NCBI RefSeq assembly: GCF_946893725.1
Contig: NZ_CAMPPE010000003.1
Coordinates: forward strand, 62,001 to 126,000
Direction: 5' to 3'
Source of the DNA: Anaerococcus sp. Marseille-Q5996
Lineage (GTDB): Bacteria > Bacillota > Clostridia > Tissierellales > Peptoniphilaceae
DNA length: 64,000 bases
In this document: piece by piece, positions 3,748 through 8,909 of the stretch
Layout: each line of letters begins with the position of its first letter
How positions within the stretch are numbered: position 1 is the stretch's first letter
Notes under the pieces: model-generated
What the model was told of the DNA's origin: nothing
Databases searched by the model: none
Seen by the model: the letters and a program-made list of their open reading frames with translations, nothing else
Translations under genes and position numbers: made by a program

Positions 3748-3756
3748 GGAGAAATG

Positions 3757-5670
3757 ATGACTGATAACAATAAAGATTTAAATGAAATGCTTAAGATTAA
3801 AAGAGAAAAACTTGAAGAACTTAAGCAAGAAGGTAGAGATCCACACGAAATTGTAAACTTTAAAGACCGCACACCTGCAAGTGAAATTAAAGATAATTTT
3901 GAAGATTACGATGGTAAGTCTGTAAGAATTGCTGGTCGTATTAGAGCAAAACGTGGTCACGGAAACATGAGTTTTATGGATATCCAAGATGAATCTGGAA
4001 CAATCCAAATTGTAAATCGTAAAAATGTTATCGGTGATGAATTCAAACAAGTAAAAAAATATGATATTGGTGATATAGTAGGTATTGAGGGAAATGTTTT
4101 TAAAACAAACCAAGGTGAAATCTCTATAGAAACACAAAATCCTCAACTACTAACAAAATCTTTACAAATATTGCCAGAAAAATGGCACGGACTAAAAGAC
4201 CCAGACTTAAGATATAGACAAAGATACCTAGACCTTATTGTAAATCCAGAAGTAAAAGAAGTTTTCTATTTAAGAAGCAAAATTATTTCTGAAATTAGAA
4301 AATTCCTAGACGGCAGAGGATTTATCGAAGTTGAAACACCAATTTTAAATACAATCGCAGGTGGAGCCACAGCACGTCCATTTATAACCCACCACAACAC
4401 ATTAGATATAGATATGTATCTAAGAATTGCAAACGAACTTTACTTAAAAAGACTAATTGTCGGTGGATTCGATAAAGTTTATGAAATGGGCAGAATGTTT
4501 AGAAACGAAGGTATGGATGCTACCCACAATCCTGAGTACACCGCAATGGAACTATACCAAGCCTATGCTGATTATGAAGATATGATGGAAATTACAGAAC
4601 ATATGGTAGAAACAGTAGCTAAAAATGTTCTAGGAAAAACCACTATCGAATATGACGGCCAAGAAATAGAACTAAAAGCACCATGGGCTAGAATTCCAAT
4701 GATTGATGCTATCAAAGATGAAACTGGTATTGACTTTAACCAAATCACATCTTATGAAGATGCAGTTGCAATTGCAAAAGAAAAAGGTGTTGAAGTAAAA
4801 GAAACACGTGGAGAAATCATTTCAGAATTCTTCGAAGAATTTGTAGAAGATAAGCTAATCCAACCTACATTTATAATCGATTACCCAGTAGAAATCTCAC
4901 CTCTAGCTAAAAGAAAAAATGATGATAAGTCATTAACTTATAGATTTGAAGCCTTTATCAATGGAAAAGAAGTAGCAAATGCATTCTCAGAATTGAACGA
5001 TGCTACAGATCAAAGAGAAAGATTTGAAGCGCAAGTTGCTAAACGTGAAAAAGGTGATGATGAAGCACAAATGATGGATCACGATTTTGTAAATGCTCTT
5101 GAAGTAGGACTTCCTCCAACAGGTGGTCTTGGTATAGGCATTGACAGAGTTATAATGTTACTTACTGGTCAACACTCAATTCGTGATGTCCTATTATTCC
5201 CAACAATGAAGCCAATAGGCTTAGAAAAGGCAGAAAATAGTAATTCGTCAAAAGAAACTTACGAAACTTACAACAAACTTACGACAGAAGAAATCGACTT
5301 TTCAAAGGTGAAAGTAGAGCCACTATTTGAAGATATGGTTGATTTTGATACATTCTCAAAATCTGATTTTAGAGTTGTAAAAGTTAAGAACTGCGAAGAA
5401 GTTCCAAAGTCAAAAAAACTTTTGAAATTTACATTAGATGATGGTTCTGAAAAAGAAAGAGTTATTTTATCTGGTATTAAGGAATATTACAGTGCAGAGA
5501 GCTTAATTGGAAAGACACTACTTGCGATTTGTAATCTTCCTCCACGTAAGATGATGGGAATCGACTCAGAAGGTATGATTATATCTGCAATTTGTGAGTA
5601 CGACGGAGAAGAAAAACTTAACTTAATAATGTTGGATAATAATATTCCAGCAGGATCAAAATTATATTAA
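3757..5670 (+). CDS. lysS: Lysyl-tRNA synthetase (class II) with an extra C-terminal tRNA-binding domain
   Basis: Charges tRNA-Lys. The N-terminal OB-fold anticodon-binding domain spans roughly residues 55-150. The class II catalytic core carries '[17 protein letters not shown]' (motif 2) and '[14 protein letters not shown]' (motif 3). Standard LysRS ends just after 'LFPTMKP' (about residue 486). Here a ~40-residue linker and a ~110-residue EMAP-II/CsaA-type tRNA-binding domain ('[11 protein letters not shown]', 'NLPPRKMMG', '[10 protein letters not shown]') follow, giving 637 residues. The same domain recurs at 8409, and a 14-base identity (5197-5210 and 8400-8413) marks where the tail was probably replaced by an integrating element. 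The ATG at 3757 is better spaced from AAGGAG than 3754. Confidence 0.96.
5197..5210 (+). repeat. Left copy of 14-bp direct repeat (candidate attachment core)
   Basis: TTCCCAACAATGAA within the lysS codons for F-P-T-M-(K/N). An identical copy is at 8400-8413. Outside these 14 bases the flanks diverge abruptly on the left side (LysRS core here, non-coding DNA there), as expected of a recombination crossover. Confidence 0.6.
5255..5286 (+). repeat. Short direct repeats CTTACRA in the element-side lysS linker
   Basis: CTTAC recurs at 5258, 5267 and 5278 (CTTACGA, CTTACAA, CTTACGACA) in the linker codons just inside the left junction. The right end of the element has three TTACGACA copies (8256, 8266, 8277). 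They could be arm-type recombinase-binding sites; that role is inferred. Confidence 0.4.
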
Positions 5671-5687
5671 AAGAACACGCTAATTAT

Positions 5688-5725
5688 TAAACTGGGGTTT
5701 GTTATAAATCCCAGTTTAATTTTTA
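5688..5725 (+). terminator. Intrinsic terminator after lysS
   Basis: TAAACTGGGGTTT (5688-5700) pairs with AAATCCCAGTTTA (5706-5718) with one G-U pair and a 5-base loop, followed by a T-rich run. Confidence 0.85.
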
Positions 5726-5729
5726 TATT

Positions 5730-6065
5730 AAGCAAGATACTACGGTATTAAACGTAATTTCTACTTTAGACCTATATAACACATCAGAAACAAGATCAAA
5801 TCAAAAATCTTTTGGTCTAAATTATCAAAAAACTAGCAAGGAACTTATGAGCCAAGATGAAATAACTGTAATGGATGGTGGTAAGTGTATATACCAGCTA
5901 AGAGGAGTAAGACCTTTCTTGTCTGATAAATTCGATATTACAAAACATAAGAATTATAAGTTATTGGAAGACTATGATAAGAAGAATTTATTTGATGTGG
6001 AAGAGTTTTTGAAAAACAGAGATAAAATAAAAATAAACAGAAACAGTTTAATTACAAGATTATGA
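5730..6065 (+). pseudogene. VirD4-like conjugative coupling protein, C-terminal remnant
   Basis: The reading frame is open upstream of the ATG at 5847 back to about 5730 ('QDTTVLNVISTLDLYNTSET'), and this extension also looks like the protein, so the ATG is not a real gene start. The segment 'MDGGKCIYQLRGVRPFLSDK' followed by 'DITKHKNYK' matches, from memory, the C-terminus of VirD4/TraG-type coupling ATPases of clostridial conjugative elements (CD1115 family). The Walker motifs and membrane segments, about 450 residues, are missing. This is a 5'-truncated remnant sitting directly after the lysS terminator, evidence that a conjugative element once occupied this site. Confidence 0.75.
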
Positions 6066-6090
6066 ATTAAGCTTAGGATAAAGATATTTT

Positions 6091-6099
6091 TGGTATAAT
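6091..6099 (+). promoter_or_regulatory. Extended -10 promoter for the ClbS-like gene
   Basis: TGGTATAAT at 6091-6099 is an extended -10 element (TGn plus TATAAT), 30 bases upstream of the start codon, which also has a GGAGGT ribosome-binding site. No good -35 is seen, which extended -10 promoters do not need. Confidence 0.55.
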
Positions 6100-6128
6100 A
6101 TCTATATATAAACCATGGAGGTAGGCAT

Positions 6129-6647
6129 ATGAGGTCTTATGAAAGTAAGGAAGAATTAAAGAATGAGATAAAGAAAACTTTTGAAAAATATATTTCAGAG
6201 TTTGACAATATACCAGAAGAACTAAAAGATAAAAGACTAGAAGAAGTTGATAGGACACCAGCAGAAAATATTGCCTATCAAGTAGGTTGGACAACTTTAC
6301 TCTTAAAATGGGAAGAAGATGAGAAAAAAGGTATAGATGTTAAAACACCATCTGATAAATTTAAGTGGAATCAACTTGGAGAATTATATAAGTGGTTCAC
6401 TGATACCTATGCTAATAAATCGTTAAAGGAACTAAAAGAACAACTCACAAAAAATATAGAAGATATTTATCTTTTGATAGATGAATTAACAGATGAAGAA
6501 TTATTTAAACCACATATGAGAAAATGGGCAGATGAAGCAACCAAAACTGCTACTTGGGAAGTATATAAATTTATTCATGTAAATACAGTAGCGCCATTTG
6601 GAACATTTAGGACTAAGATTAGGAAATGGAAGAAATTAGTTCTATAG
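6129..6647 (+). CDS. ClbS/DfsB-family four-helix bundle protein
   Basis: 172 residues, intact. Recognised by the N-terminal pattern 'SKEELKNEIKKTFEKYI', the central 'NIAYQVGWTTLLLKWEED' and the C-terminal 'HVNTVAPFGTFRTKIRKWKK', all characteristic of the ClbS/DfsB (DUF1706) family. The family is named after ClbS, which protects producers of the genotoxin colibactin, but most members are of unknown function and this protein need not be a resistance factor. It lies in the lysS-integrated element with its own promoter and ribosome-binding site, so it is probable cargo. Confidence 0.8.
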   Translation: MRSYESKEELKNEIKKTFEKYISEFDNIPEELKDKRLEEVDRTPAENIAYQVGWTTLLLKWEEDEKKGIDVKTPSDKFKWNQLGELYKWFTDTYANKSLKELKEQLTKNIEDIYLLIDELTDEELFKPHMRKWADEATKTATWEVYKFIHVNTVAPFGTFRTKIRKWKKLVL

Positions 6648-6684
6648 ATAGAAAAGTATAAATAAGTTTACTTAGGAGGATTTT

Positions 6685-7106
6685 ATGGCAGTTGCAAATA
6701 TCAAAGTTACATTAAATTGCCCAATAGAAAAAGTATGGGATAAAGTTACTGACCTTCGTGATTTTGGTTGGAGAAGTGATACCAAAGATATCAAAATTAT
6801 TGATGATAAGAATTTTGTAGAGATTACAAAAGATTGGATAGAAACAAATTTTAAAGTTATAGAATGTACGAAACATCAATGCTGGTCTTTTGAAATTGAA
6901 AACGCAAATATAAAAGGAACTTGGATAGGAAAATTTTATTCGAATGGAGATAAAACAACATTAGATTTTACAGAAAATATTATTTCTAAAAATTTATATT
7001 TAAACCTTTTGTAGGACTATATTTAAGAAACCAACAAAAACTGTATTTTAAAGATTTGAAGGAAGTACTTAATTGTGAAGAAGCAAGTCATGTTCAAGTG
7101 TTATGA
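6685..7106 (+). pseudogene. SRPBCC (START-like) ligand-binding domain protein, frameshifted
   Basis: The first frame (6685-7014, 109 residues) begins 'MAVANIKVTLNCPIEKVWDKVTD', a typical SRPBCC/polyketide-cyclase start, and stops after 'ENIISKNLYL'. A +1 frame from about 7004 continues as 'KPFVGLYLRNQQKLYFKDLK' to a stop at 7104-7106, which is the expected C-terminal helix. Restoring one A in the TTAAACC run near 7005 would rejoin the frames. This is either a real single-base deletion or a sequencing error. Function unknown; these domains bind hydrophobic ligands. AGGAGG ribosome-binding site present. Confidence 0.65.
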
Positions 7107-7173
7107 AAATAATGAAATAGATAAATTGGAGTAGCCTATTCATATATTTAGATCTTTTCGAAAGGATAAAACA

Positions 7174-7791
7174 ATGATAGAAAGTAGACTTAAGTTTGAT
7201 AAAATCACATCGTTTGATGAGTTTAATAAATACTATTGGTATCGTGAAGAACTTTCACAGATATGCAAGTTATTAGGATTAGAATATAGAGGTACAAAAC
7301 AAGAACTTACTTATATTATTGAGCAGTACTTTAAGGGGGATGTGATTAAAAAGTCATCAATAAAAAACATAAAGAAACAAGTTGATTATATTACTTTAGA
7401 TATGCCTTTACTTGAGTGTGGATTTTCCTTTAATTCAAAATTCAGAGAATATTTTTCTGTTGTAACAGGTGTTTTGCCTTTTAAATTTACTGCAGATATG
7501 GCAACGGCTTGGAGAAAAGTAAAAAGACAAAATGATTTGAGTTTTACAATTCAAGATATGCTCAAAGTTTATTATGGAAAATCAGATTATGCTAAGTATG
7601 ATAATTCTGTTTGTCAATGGAATCAATTTTTAAAGGATTTTTGTGCAGACGAAAATAGCTGTAACTACTCTAATAAAATACAAGTAGCTGCAATTCTTTG
7701 GAAAGAAGTCAGAGATTCAAAAAACAAAAAAGTTTATTCACGAAAACTTATAAAAAAATATGAGGATAAAATAGAAGACTATCACAAGTAA
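7174..7791 (+). CDS. SAP-domain / DUF6434-like protein
   Basis: 205 residues of unknown function. The N-terminal ~45 residues ('REELSQICKLLGLEYRGTKQ') resemble a SAP/HeH helix-extended-helix DNA-binding motif. The rest contains 'KFTADMATAWRKVK' and 'YYGKSDYAKYDNSVCQWNQF', which I associate with DUF6434 proteins of Firmicutes (older annotations: cytoplasmic protein). No enzyme motif is evident. It sits among element remnants and has its own terminator. The DUF name is from memory. Confidence 0.55.
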   Translation: MIESRLKFDKITSFDEFNKYYWYREELSQICKLLGLEYRGTKQELTYIIEQYFKGDVIKKSSIKNIKKQVDYITLDMPLLECGFSFNSKFREYFSVVTGVLPFKFTADMATAWRKVKRQNDLSFTIQDMLKVYYGKSDYAKYDNSVCQWNQFLKDFCADENSCNYSNKIQVAAILWKEVRDSKNKKVYSRKLIKKYEDKIEDYHK

Positions 7792-7838
7792 ACAGAAACT
7801 ATTTTTTTGAATGAAAAAAATTAATTCAGATAGATGTT

Positions 7839-7875
7839 AGGCGATAGAAATTAAAAACTCTATCGTCTTTTTTTA
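7839..7875 (+). terminator. Intrinsic terminator after the DUF6434-like gene
   Basis: AGGCGATAG (7839-7847) pairs with CTATCGTCT (7860-7868), nine pairs including one G-U, then a run of T. Confidence 0.8.
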
Positions 7876-7895
7876 TTACAAGAAAGGAGTTTTGC

Positions 7896-8186
7896 ATGAA
7901 AAAATTAGAACAAATCAGAAAAGAATCAAAAGAAATAAAAAATAAAATTGACGATACAGAAGAAAGATTAAGGCAACTAAAAAATCAAGAAAAAAAGATA
8001 TTAAAACAAGACATAGAAAAAAGAAGAAAAGAAAGAACACATAGGCTCATAACAAGAGGAGCAATCTTAGAAAGCCTTATAGAAAATGCAGAAGAACTAA
8101 CAGATGAAGAAATAAAAATCCTACTAGAAGAAGCAATAAAGACAAAAGAATTTAAAGAAACACTAAAACTAATGAGAGAAAATTAA
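7896..8186 (+). CDS. DUF3847-like small charged protein of conjugative elements
   Basis: 96 residues, strongly predicted coiled coil in the N-terminal half (rich in K, E, Q), followed by 'RKERTHRLITRGAILESLIE', the signature I associate with DUF3847 proteins. These small proteins are commonly found next to relaxase or mobilisation genes in conjugative and mobilisable elements of Firmicutes; their function is not established. 'AAGGAG' ribosome-binding site precedes the ATG. No relaxase gene follows here, in line with an element that has lost its mobility genes. Confidence 0.65.
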   Translation: MKKLEQIRKESKEIKNKIDDTEERLRQLKNQEKKILKQDIEKRRKERTHRLITRGAILESLIENAEELTDEEIKILLEEAIKTKEFKETLKLMREN

Positions 8187-8255
8187 GAAAAATAAAATAA
8201 CCAAATAGAACAGATGGGAGAATTTGAAAAAGCGATGAAATTTATATTTTAGAAT

Positions 8256-8284
8256 TTACGACAGCTTACGACAAATTTACGACA
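8256..8284 (+). repeat. Three direct repeats of TTACGACA
   Basis: Exact copies at 8256-8263, 8266-8273 and 8277-8284, spaced 10 and 11 bases, about one helical turn. A fourth copy in opposite orientation (TGTCGTAA) is at 8327-8334. The spacing suggests a protein-binding array, for example recombinase arm sites; this is inferred. Confidence 0.6.
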
Positions 8285-8336
8285 ATTTGCTAGAAATCTA
8301 TAGGCACTTATAGAGAGTTAGCAAATTGTCGTAAAT
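8275..8336. repeat. 18-bp perfect inverted repeat near the right end of the element
   Basis: ATTTACGACAATTTGCTA (8275-8292) and its exact reverse complement (8319-8336) flank a 26-base spacer, which itself contains a short CTATA/TATAG palindrome. There is no T-run, so it is not a simple terminator. Its position 65 bases from the putative attachment core suggests a recombination or replication site. The rest of 8187-8399 holds no gene I can see. Confidence 0.6.
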
Positions 8337-8399
8337 GGAGAAGTACCATAAAATAGACTTTTATAGAGGTTTAGACAATTATCTAAGGTAGAGGGGATT

Positions 8400-8413
8400 T
8401 TCCCAACAATGAA
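8400..8413 (+). repeat. Right copy of 14-bp direct repeat (candidate attachment core)
   Basis: TTCCCAACAATGAA identical to 5197-5210. It starts the displaced lysS tail, in the same reading frame (F-P-T-M). Confidence 0.6.
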
Positions 8414-8861
8414 ACCTACTGGTAAAAATGCTGTGGAAAATATTGAAATAGCACCTACAAAAACAGTTGAACAAACAAATGAAGTTGTAGACTTTACTGG
8501 TGTGGAAACTGAAGAATTTTATGATGATATAGACTTTGAAACATTTTCAAAATCAGACTTTAGAGTGGTAAAAGTAACAGACTGTGAAGAAGTACCAAAA
8601 TCAAATAAATTACTTAAATTTACCTTAGATGACGGTACAGATACACCAAGAATAATCCTGTCTGGTATCAAAAAACATTACACAGCAGAAGAGTTAATCG
8701 GCAAAAATTTAGTAGCCATAGTTAACCTACCACCAAGAGCAATGATGGGTGAGGAATCACAAGGTATGATCTTATCAGCAGTTTATGAACAAAATGGTGA
8801 AGAAAAACTAAATGTCCTAATGGTAAGTAACAATATCCCAGCAGGGGCAAAATTATATTAA
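8409..8861 (+). pseudogene. Displaced lysS 3' end: stand-alone tRNA-binding domain
   Basis: 150 codons beginning 'MKPTG', which matches the end of the LysRS core ('PTMKPIG'). A ~40-residue linker and an EMAP-II/CsaA-type tRNA-binding domain follow, about 70% identical by hand alignment to the C-terminal domain of the intact lysS. I see no ribosome-binding site before the ATG, and the upstream in-frame codons (F-P-T) belong to LysRS, so this is most simply the original lysS tail cut off by the insertion. The domain itself is intact and could act as a free tRNA-binding protein if it is translated. A strong terminator follows. Confidence 0.75.
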
Positions 8862-8873
8862 TAGAAAATGTAG

Positions 8874-8909
8874 ACTTCCTAAATCTCCTAGAGACTTAGG
8901 AAGTTTTTT
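8874..8909 (+). terminator. Intrinsic terminator after the displaced lysS tail
   Basis: ACTTCCTAA (8874-8882) and TTAGGAAGT (8896-8904), a perfect 9-bp stem, followed by T6. It was probably the original lysS terminator before the insertion. Confidence 0.88.

Follow-up and report, generated by a model that had tools for sequence, protein, structure and literature searches.

What accounts for a lysyl-tRNA synthetase gene whose 3' end is encoded a second time further downstream? The question is raised by lysS, encoding LysRS, in a 64-kb stretch of Anaerococcus sp. Marseille-Q5996 (Tissierellales; hereafter the window), where one C-terminal tRNA-binding domain is fused to the catalytic core and another stands as a free open reading frame (ORF) beyond a 3.2-kb remnant. 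Very probably, an integrative and conjugative element (ICE) with a Tn916-type integrase was inserted in lysS, fusing its own 3' end to the gene and displacing the native tail. Genomes compared with the window carry G-numbers and loci carry L-numbers. The locus comprises the following features:

3754 to 5196, + strand: catalytic core of lysS (host), ending at the attachment site; PF00152 and OB-fold, 97.7% amino acid and 93.9% DNA identity to G023
5197 to 5210, + strand: attL core, TTCCCAACAATGAA; exact repeat of 8400-8413 and, in the accessible text of PMC8301612, the published 13-bp repeat of lysS islands
5211 to 5670, + strand: element-borne lysS 3' end, i.e. linker and tRNA_bind (domain at ~5368-5661); PF01588, DNA match to 11 of 18 genus tails
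5686 to 5720, + strand: terminator hairpin 3' of the element-borne tail, called by the program as a + strand terminator
8400 to 8413, + strand: attR core, TTCCCAACAATGAA; exact repeat of 5197-5210
8409 to 8861, + strand: displaced native lysS tail, a free tRNA_bind ORF of 150 amino acids; 92.8% amino acid and 89.8% DNA identity to the fused tail of G023
8874 to 8904, + strand: terminator-like hairpin of native lysS, conserved in the empty-site relative G023

The initial annotation had described an exact 14-bp repeat lying in the same frame at both positions, and a repeat scan and the reading frames agree with this. Both copies of TTCCCAACAATGAA are in the reading frame of their lysS tails, no third exact copy occurs in the window, and two copies did not arise by chance in any of 100 dinucleotide shuffles. 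The lysS gene (3754-5670) encodes 638 amino acids with a PF00152 class-II catalytic core and a PF01588 tRNA_bind domain (residues 539-636); the free ORF possesses a start codon and PF01588 at residues 51-147. The two tails are homologous, as had been claimed, with an identity of 60–62% over ~155 amino acids rather than the ~70% estimated for a shorter stretch of ~112 residues. Hairpins follow both tails, in line with the proposal of a terminator for each; the program listed 8874-8904 on the minus strand only, and the TTTTTT that succeeds it on the + strand was read by eye. As this lysS is intact and is the only one found in the genome, the chimeric LysRS presumably works. The sole further PF01588-like match in the genome lies inside a 650-codon frame that, judged by its size, is probably MetRS.

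An empty site was sought among lysS regions taken from 29 of the 30 other genomes of the genus (G017 gave no lysS tail). G023, the nearest genome searched by lysS core, has one lysS tail, which matches the displaced tail of the window at the identities listed above as compared to 68.8% DNA identity to the fused tail. The region 3' of G023 lysS contains the same siderophore-ABC genes and a near-identical terminator-like hairpin as the window from 8862 onward. In the second nearest genome, G011, the single tail exhibits 82.6% DNA identity to the displaced tail versus 68.4% to the fused tail. Relatives without the element thus carry one tail of the displaced type, as the initial annotation had predicted. 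These data also bear on whether the free ORF (8409-8861) might be a Trbp111-like gene in its own right instead of a displaced tail. Its start codon and the two best solved matches of its domain, free-standing Trbp111 (1pyb, E 2e-21) tied with a MetRS beta subunit, would fit such a gene; its 92.8% identity to the C-terminus of a fused LysRS at the same locus in G023, with a shared terminator-like hairpin, renders this explanation highly improbable.

Comparison of tail and core DNA between the window and 18 other lysS genes of the genus indicates that the fused tail is of foreign origin. The tails of 11 of these genes exhibited 94–97% DNA identity to the fused tail of the window with cores at 77–83%, intermediate values were obtained for G013 (87.0%) and G025 (83.4%), and the remaining five (G023, G011, G015, G024 and G010) were at 66–69%. 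Between the window and G003, dS (synonymous divergence) was 0.998 for the core and 0.168 for the fused tail; between the window and G023, it was 0.313 for the core and 0.456 for the displaced tail. A sharp break in identity between core and tail was located at the attachment core in the pairs compared. Trees of the core (29 rows, frameshifted G029 being left out) and of the tail (45 rows, excluding two tails of <130 amino acids and further partial copies) were in conflict; the tail-tree rows G028 and G029, labelled as displaced, are element tails at secondary sites. Approximately unbiased (AU) tests rejected grouping of the fused tails with the sisters of their hosts (P = 1.3e-5 for the window, 2.7e-52 for G026 and 1.1e-52 for G003), and the displaced tails of the same three genomes already group with those sisters. 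If the lysS 3' end had been duplicated in tandem within a single lineage, with later divergence and chance insertions between the copies, homologous tandem tails and an exact 14-bp repeat would also result. Such a history is so improbable as to be nearly negligible: the fused tail resembles tails from distant species more closely than the second copy in its own genome or the tails of its sisters, the corresponding interval in relatives holds larger elements with an integrase and conserved ends, and the empty site of G023 and the conflict between the trees likewise argue against it.

These larger elements, found in the genus and beyond, carry the integrase at the displaced-tail end, as anticipated by the initial annotation. 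Together with the empty site, they support its suggestion of a site-specific insertion into lysS by an element bringing its own 3' end. Fused and displaced tails are separated by ~63–81 kb on one contig in G003, G004, G005, G008 and G026, and by ~153 kb in G027. Gene content was listed for an element of Falseniella and, in part, for that of G003. In the larger genus elements, a tyrosine integrase of 411 amino acids ends ~150 bp 5' of the displaced tail. Matches to this integrase at E ≤ 1e-80 were present in 33 of 130 family genomes, with a full-length copy of at least 97% identity in 25 of these, from 8 genera. Among the 28 integrase loci examined at ≥93% identity (32 rows, 4 without a locus), 22 are adjacent to a lysS tail (intact at 20, interrupted by early stops at two), three are at secondary sites and three are cut by contig ends. 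The right-end pattern was detected as 36 copies in 30 of the 130 genomes, as compared to 0 for a reversed control. The integrase of the Falseniella element combines PF00589 with the Tn916-type DNA-binding domain PF02920, and a Tn916-type Xis is encoded just upstream. Coupling protein, RepA_N and Xis were detected in this element and a coupling-protein fragment only in the window; relaxase and VirB4 were not searched for. Among 21 more distantly related integrase loci from the class (L122-L142), 13 are followed by a short lysS-like end of 8–10 residues, one by a domain tail and seven by neither.

Elements were also observed in other arrangements. The element or its tail end occurs at secondary sites in G028 (G028:C2:225390-327686), G029, G035, G036 and G038, where the element tail is a free ORF outside lysS. 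Part of the attachment core only (e.g. TTCC..ACAA) is found at the secondary-site loci L072, L073, L103, L112, L118, L184 and L185. Two displaced native-like tails lie 7.5 kb apart in G012 (G012:C5:138050-146055, L077), and their mutual dS of ~1.0 suggests serial insertions by elements with different tails. Three displaced tails on one contig of G022 (G022:C10:33528-65131, L075 and L076) represent stacked elements; two of them are near-identical and adjoin an integrase copy each, one of these copies being truncated.

Both ends of the element in the window contain short repeats resembling arm-type integrase sites:

5259 to 5285, + strand: putative left arm-type integrase sites in the coding linker (TTACGAA at 5259, TTACAAC at 5268, TTACGAC at 5279-5285)
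8256 to 8334, + strand: right arm-type repeats (TTACGAC at 8256, 8266 and 8277; inverted GTCGTAA at 8328), the repeat pattern of genus right ends

Of the 14 right ends read in the genus, that of the window among them, 12 contain three direct copies and one inverted copy of TTACGAC; a G012 copy with two TTACGAC and a contig-cut G002 copy with one deviate. In the linker, the motif was found in 16 of 30 genus lysS tails (15 with two copies) and in none of the other 14, the window having one TTACGAC and decayed neighbours. A wider sample consisted of the best 80 named loci of 392 relatives found. In this sample, at least one TTACGAC was present in 43 of the 44 tails that are ≥92% identical to class A (i.e. 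the element-type lysS tail used as identity reference), with two copies in 35; the lone exception, L304, begins past the linker. The motif was present in seven of the 36 less similar tails. The reading frame differs between the two linker copies (acT-TAC-GAC, T-Y-D; CTT-ACG-ACa, L-T-T), which suggests that the motif is selected as DNA and not as peptide; the repeats would be binding sites for the integrase. This sharing of repeats between the element tail and the other end of the element is not expected if ordinary homologous recombination with a foreign lysS had replaced the tail and the remnant were a separate insertion. Some lysS genes do have an element-type tail and no element end in the stretch read, as such a replacement would predict. 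For the window, this explanation is strongly disfavoured and very unlikely, as the core/tail identity changes sharply across the attachment core and the native tail is kept downstream, which a replacement would not leave.

In the proposed mechanism, an ICE with a Tn916-type tyrosine integrase would recombine at a conserved 13–14-bp site where the catalytic core ends (lysS codons 482-486). Since a linker and a tRNA-binding OB domain, i.e. ~150 residues, follow this site in this genus, the element would bring a complete replacement 3' end consisting of linker, domain, stop and terminator. Integration would join this end in frame to the host core, so that the native tail comes to lie beyond the integrase at the opposite end of the element; excision would restore the native tail. 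This mechanism is very likely, and the empty site, the two junctions, the foreign source of the fused tail, the larger integrase elements, the swap elsewhere and displaced domains at other lysS elements are evident from the sequences. Several points weigh against it. Neither excision nor a circular form was detected, and a role of the swapped domain in LysRS is putative. The element in the window is without an integrase and its mobility is deduced from relatives. Tail-tree support for the sister group of the window's displaced tail is weak (74/68). Lastly, several lysS genes with element tails exhibit no element end or displaced tail in the stretch read, and later deletion is indistinguishable there from plain tail recombination.

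The remnant between the two tails of the window contains the following:

5763 to 6065, + strand: truncated C-terminus of a type IV secretion system coupling protein (VirD4/TraG type); 96% identity over 100 amino acids to residues 497-596 of the intact Falseniella-element protein
6129 to 6647, + strand: DUF1706 ORF, also 3' of the coupling protein in the Falseniella element
6685 to 7014, + strand: SRPBCC/Polyketide_cyc2-like ORF; weak match, below the Pfam cut-off
7174 to 7791, + strand: SAP_new25 ORF, 99.5% identity to G001
7896 to 8186, + strand: DUF3847 ORF, occurring in related elements
8205 to 8252, + strand: integrase-gene remnant (last 15 codons and stop), matching integrase-end sequence in 10 genus genomes

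The initial annotation had placed remnants of conjugation genes here. This holds for the coupling-protein C-terminus, accompanied by the DUF3847 ORF and the integrase 3' end; the DUF1706, SRPBCC-like and SAP_new25 ORFs are not conjugation genes. A Pfam search with the coupling-protein fragment alone (5724-6062) produced no match. The element in the window is a relic of an ICE family that is widespread. Most of the element, including nearly the whole integrase gene, has since been lost from the window, and the lysS domain swap is therefore probably now frozen. The remnant genes (5723-8186) exhibit 95–100% amino acid identity to post-lysS genes of G001 (G001:C6, L037), a distant genus-mate with 77% DNA identity in the lysS core, which is a sign of recent sharing of the same element form.

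The fate of the displaced domain was also considered. The 150-amino acid ORF could be expressed after displacement, and the domain may be translated. Three type-2 ends (L177, L180 and L309; G079, G092 and a metagenome-assembled genome of the Oscillospiraceae) contain, ahead of the displaced domain, an element-supplied purine-rich stretch, likely to be a ribosome-binding site, and an in-frame start with the leader M..MLNE(E/K)Q; no such leader or start was present before the domain at the type-2-like ends of G053, G113 and G243. For type-1 ends, the conserved AGAGGGGATT before the displaced ATG was considered as an element-supplied ribosome-binding site and dropped, being equally explained as the att site of the element. 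Since a number of displaced copies are disrupted, e.g. in G004 and G002 and in others that contain stops, the displaced domain is not generally essential. The dN/dS ratios were 0.01–0.16 for displaced-tail pairs (n = 7) and 0.03–0.11 for native pairs (n = 4), with no clear relaxation; these values say little on use of the displaced domain because most of the divergence probably predates displacement. A further proposal, that integration is a reversible exchange of domains in this essential enzyme, in which the element domain alters LysRS to the benefit of element or host and the displaced domain acts in trans as a Trbp111-like protein, is speculative and rather unlikely.

Fusion of lysS to a tail ≥93% identical to class A was found in 33 of the 130 family genomes, from 13 of 39 genera (G029 and G053, with broken or cut lysS, were not counted). 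Gain of the domain was surveyed in the family of Facklamia languida, where lysS was obtained from 75 of 76 genomes. The open frames comprised 659–663 codons in four genomes and 502–528 codons in 70, with one partial match. The four long genes (F. languida, Falseniella ignava, Atopobacter sp. AH10 and one further genome) all carry the class-A tail, the three named hosts being Lactobacillales of the class Bacilli. In Falseniella, the order on one contig is LysRS core, element tail, integrase and a native-type 7-residue tail, FPTMRNQ, within 10.6 kb. In Atopobacter, FPTLKNIEKK lies behind the integrase on a different contig; for F. languida and the fourth genome, the stretch read contained no element end. 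Native tails passing the filter in this family numbered 10 among 30 loci, all of 7–9 residues. Apparently, the element has grafted the domain onto a domain-less LysRS of Lactobacillales in 4 of 75 genomes. Mogibacterium pumilum was rejected as a further gain and assigned to the swaps, as domain tails are also present in its three genus relatives.

Loss of the domain through other lysS-targeting elements, with the domain left behind, apparently occurred in three genomes. G079 and G092, from different genera, have a short-ended lysS and domain tails 59 and 40 kb downstream, respectively, beside an integrase ~40% identical to the type-1 integrase. In G106, lysS ends in FPTMKPLVDKEQLVNSESK and a class-A tail lies 36 kb away beside a 52% integrase. 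Since some family genera are natively short-tailed (e.g. G031-G036 and G038, with short native tails throughout the stretches read), the direction rests on the genus relatives G078, G094 and G107, one read per case, in which the domain is fused. G083 has a short lysS tail, and no displaced domain was found in this 65%-complete genome. An element-type tail with no right end or displaced tail in the fetched stretch was observed in G081, G051, G108, G013 and F. languida (L225, L227, L229, L049 and L363); these are possibly fixed domain replacements or gains. Overall, a domain swap as the evolutionary outcome, plus apparent gain and loss by insertion, is well supported by these comparisons.

Gain and loss of accessory domains in aminoacyl-tRNA synthetases are generally regarded as slow processes. 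The lysS elements indicate that a single recombination event can exchange, add or remove a LysRS domain, with the old tail often kept downstream as a record. Exchange crosses genera and domain gain reaches another class of Bacillota, so that natural pairs with and without the domain are available for asking what the LysRS tRNA-binding domain does. Putative integrase-binding DNA doubles here as a protein linker, and insertion in a housekeeping gene is not necessarily neutral for protein sequence.

In the available text of published reports, lysS is a target of ICEs and islands in Streptococcus and Enterococcus (i.e. ICE_SsuGZ1_lysS, the vanD islands Tn6711-Tn6713 and ICEVREfm_vanD), with a site at or ~17 bp from the lysS end and a protein reportedly modified very little (PMC4701971, PMC8301612, PMC10765050, PMC7168690). 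The vanD elements have a 13-bp repeat in lysS, TTCCC(A/G/C)AC(A/G)ATGA, in the portions consulted (PMC8301612, PMC10765050), and the window cores fit it exactly. The likeness to these elements lies in target gene, site-specific integration and repeat; the difference is that few codons follow the site there, as described in those portions, whereas ~157 codons with a folded domain are exchanged here. Insertion of e14 into icd of Escherichia coli K-12 is similar in that, according to the text available, an in-frame replacement 3' end is supplied within a coding gene and a displaced copy is left; 54 residues are replaced there with 2 conservative changes (PMC11148124). In contrast, the tail exchanged here belongs to an aminoacyl-tRNA synthetase, contains a whole accessory domain and is ~38% different. 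The PF00589 and PF02920 integrase, the Tn916-type Xis and the direct-repeat clusters at both ends resemble the Tn916 module; unlike Tn916, for which low specificity is described in the accessible part of PMC4701971, these elements are lysS-specific and their left repeats lie within coding sequence. The closest solved relatives of the swapped domain are Trbp111 and the MetRS tRNA-binding domain (PF01588). Trbp, in the text available, forms a free-standing dimer and binds the 3' ends of tRNAs (PMC11286949), whereas the domain here, a predicted tRNA binder, is either joined to LysRS or present as a displaced ORF. In the literature searched, which most subscription papers lay outside, no report was found of an element that exchanges, adds or removes a synthetase domain. 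Targeting of lysS and the repeat were already known; what is new is that a whole synthetase domain is swapped, and apparently added and removed, by lysS elements.

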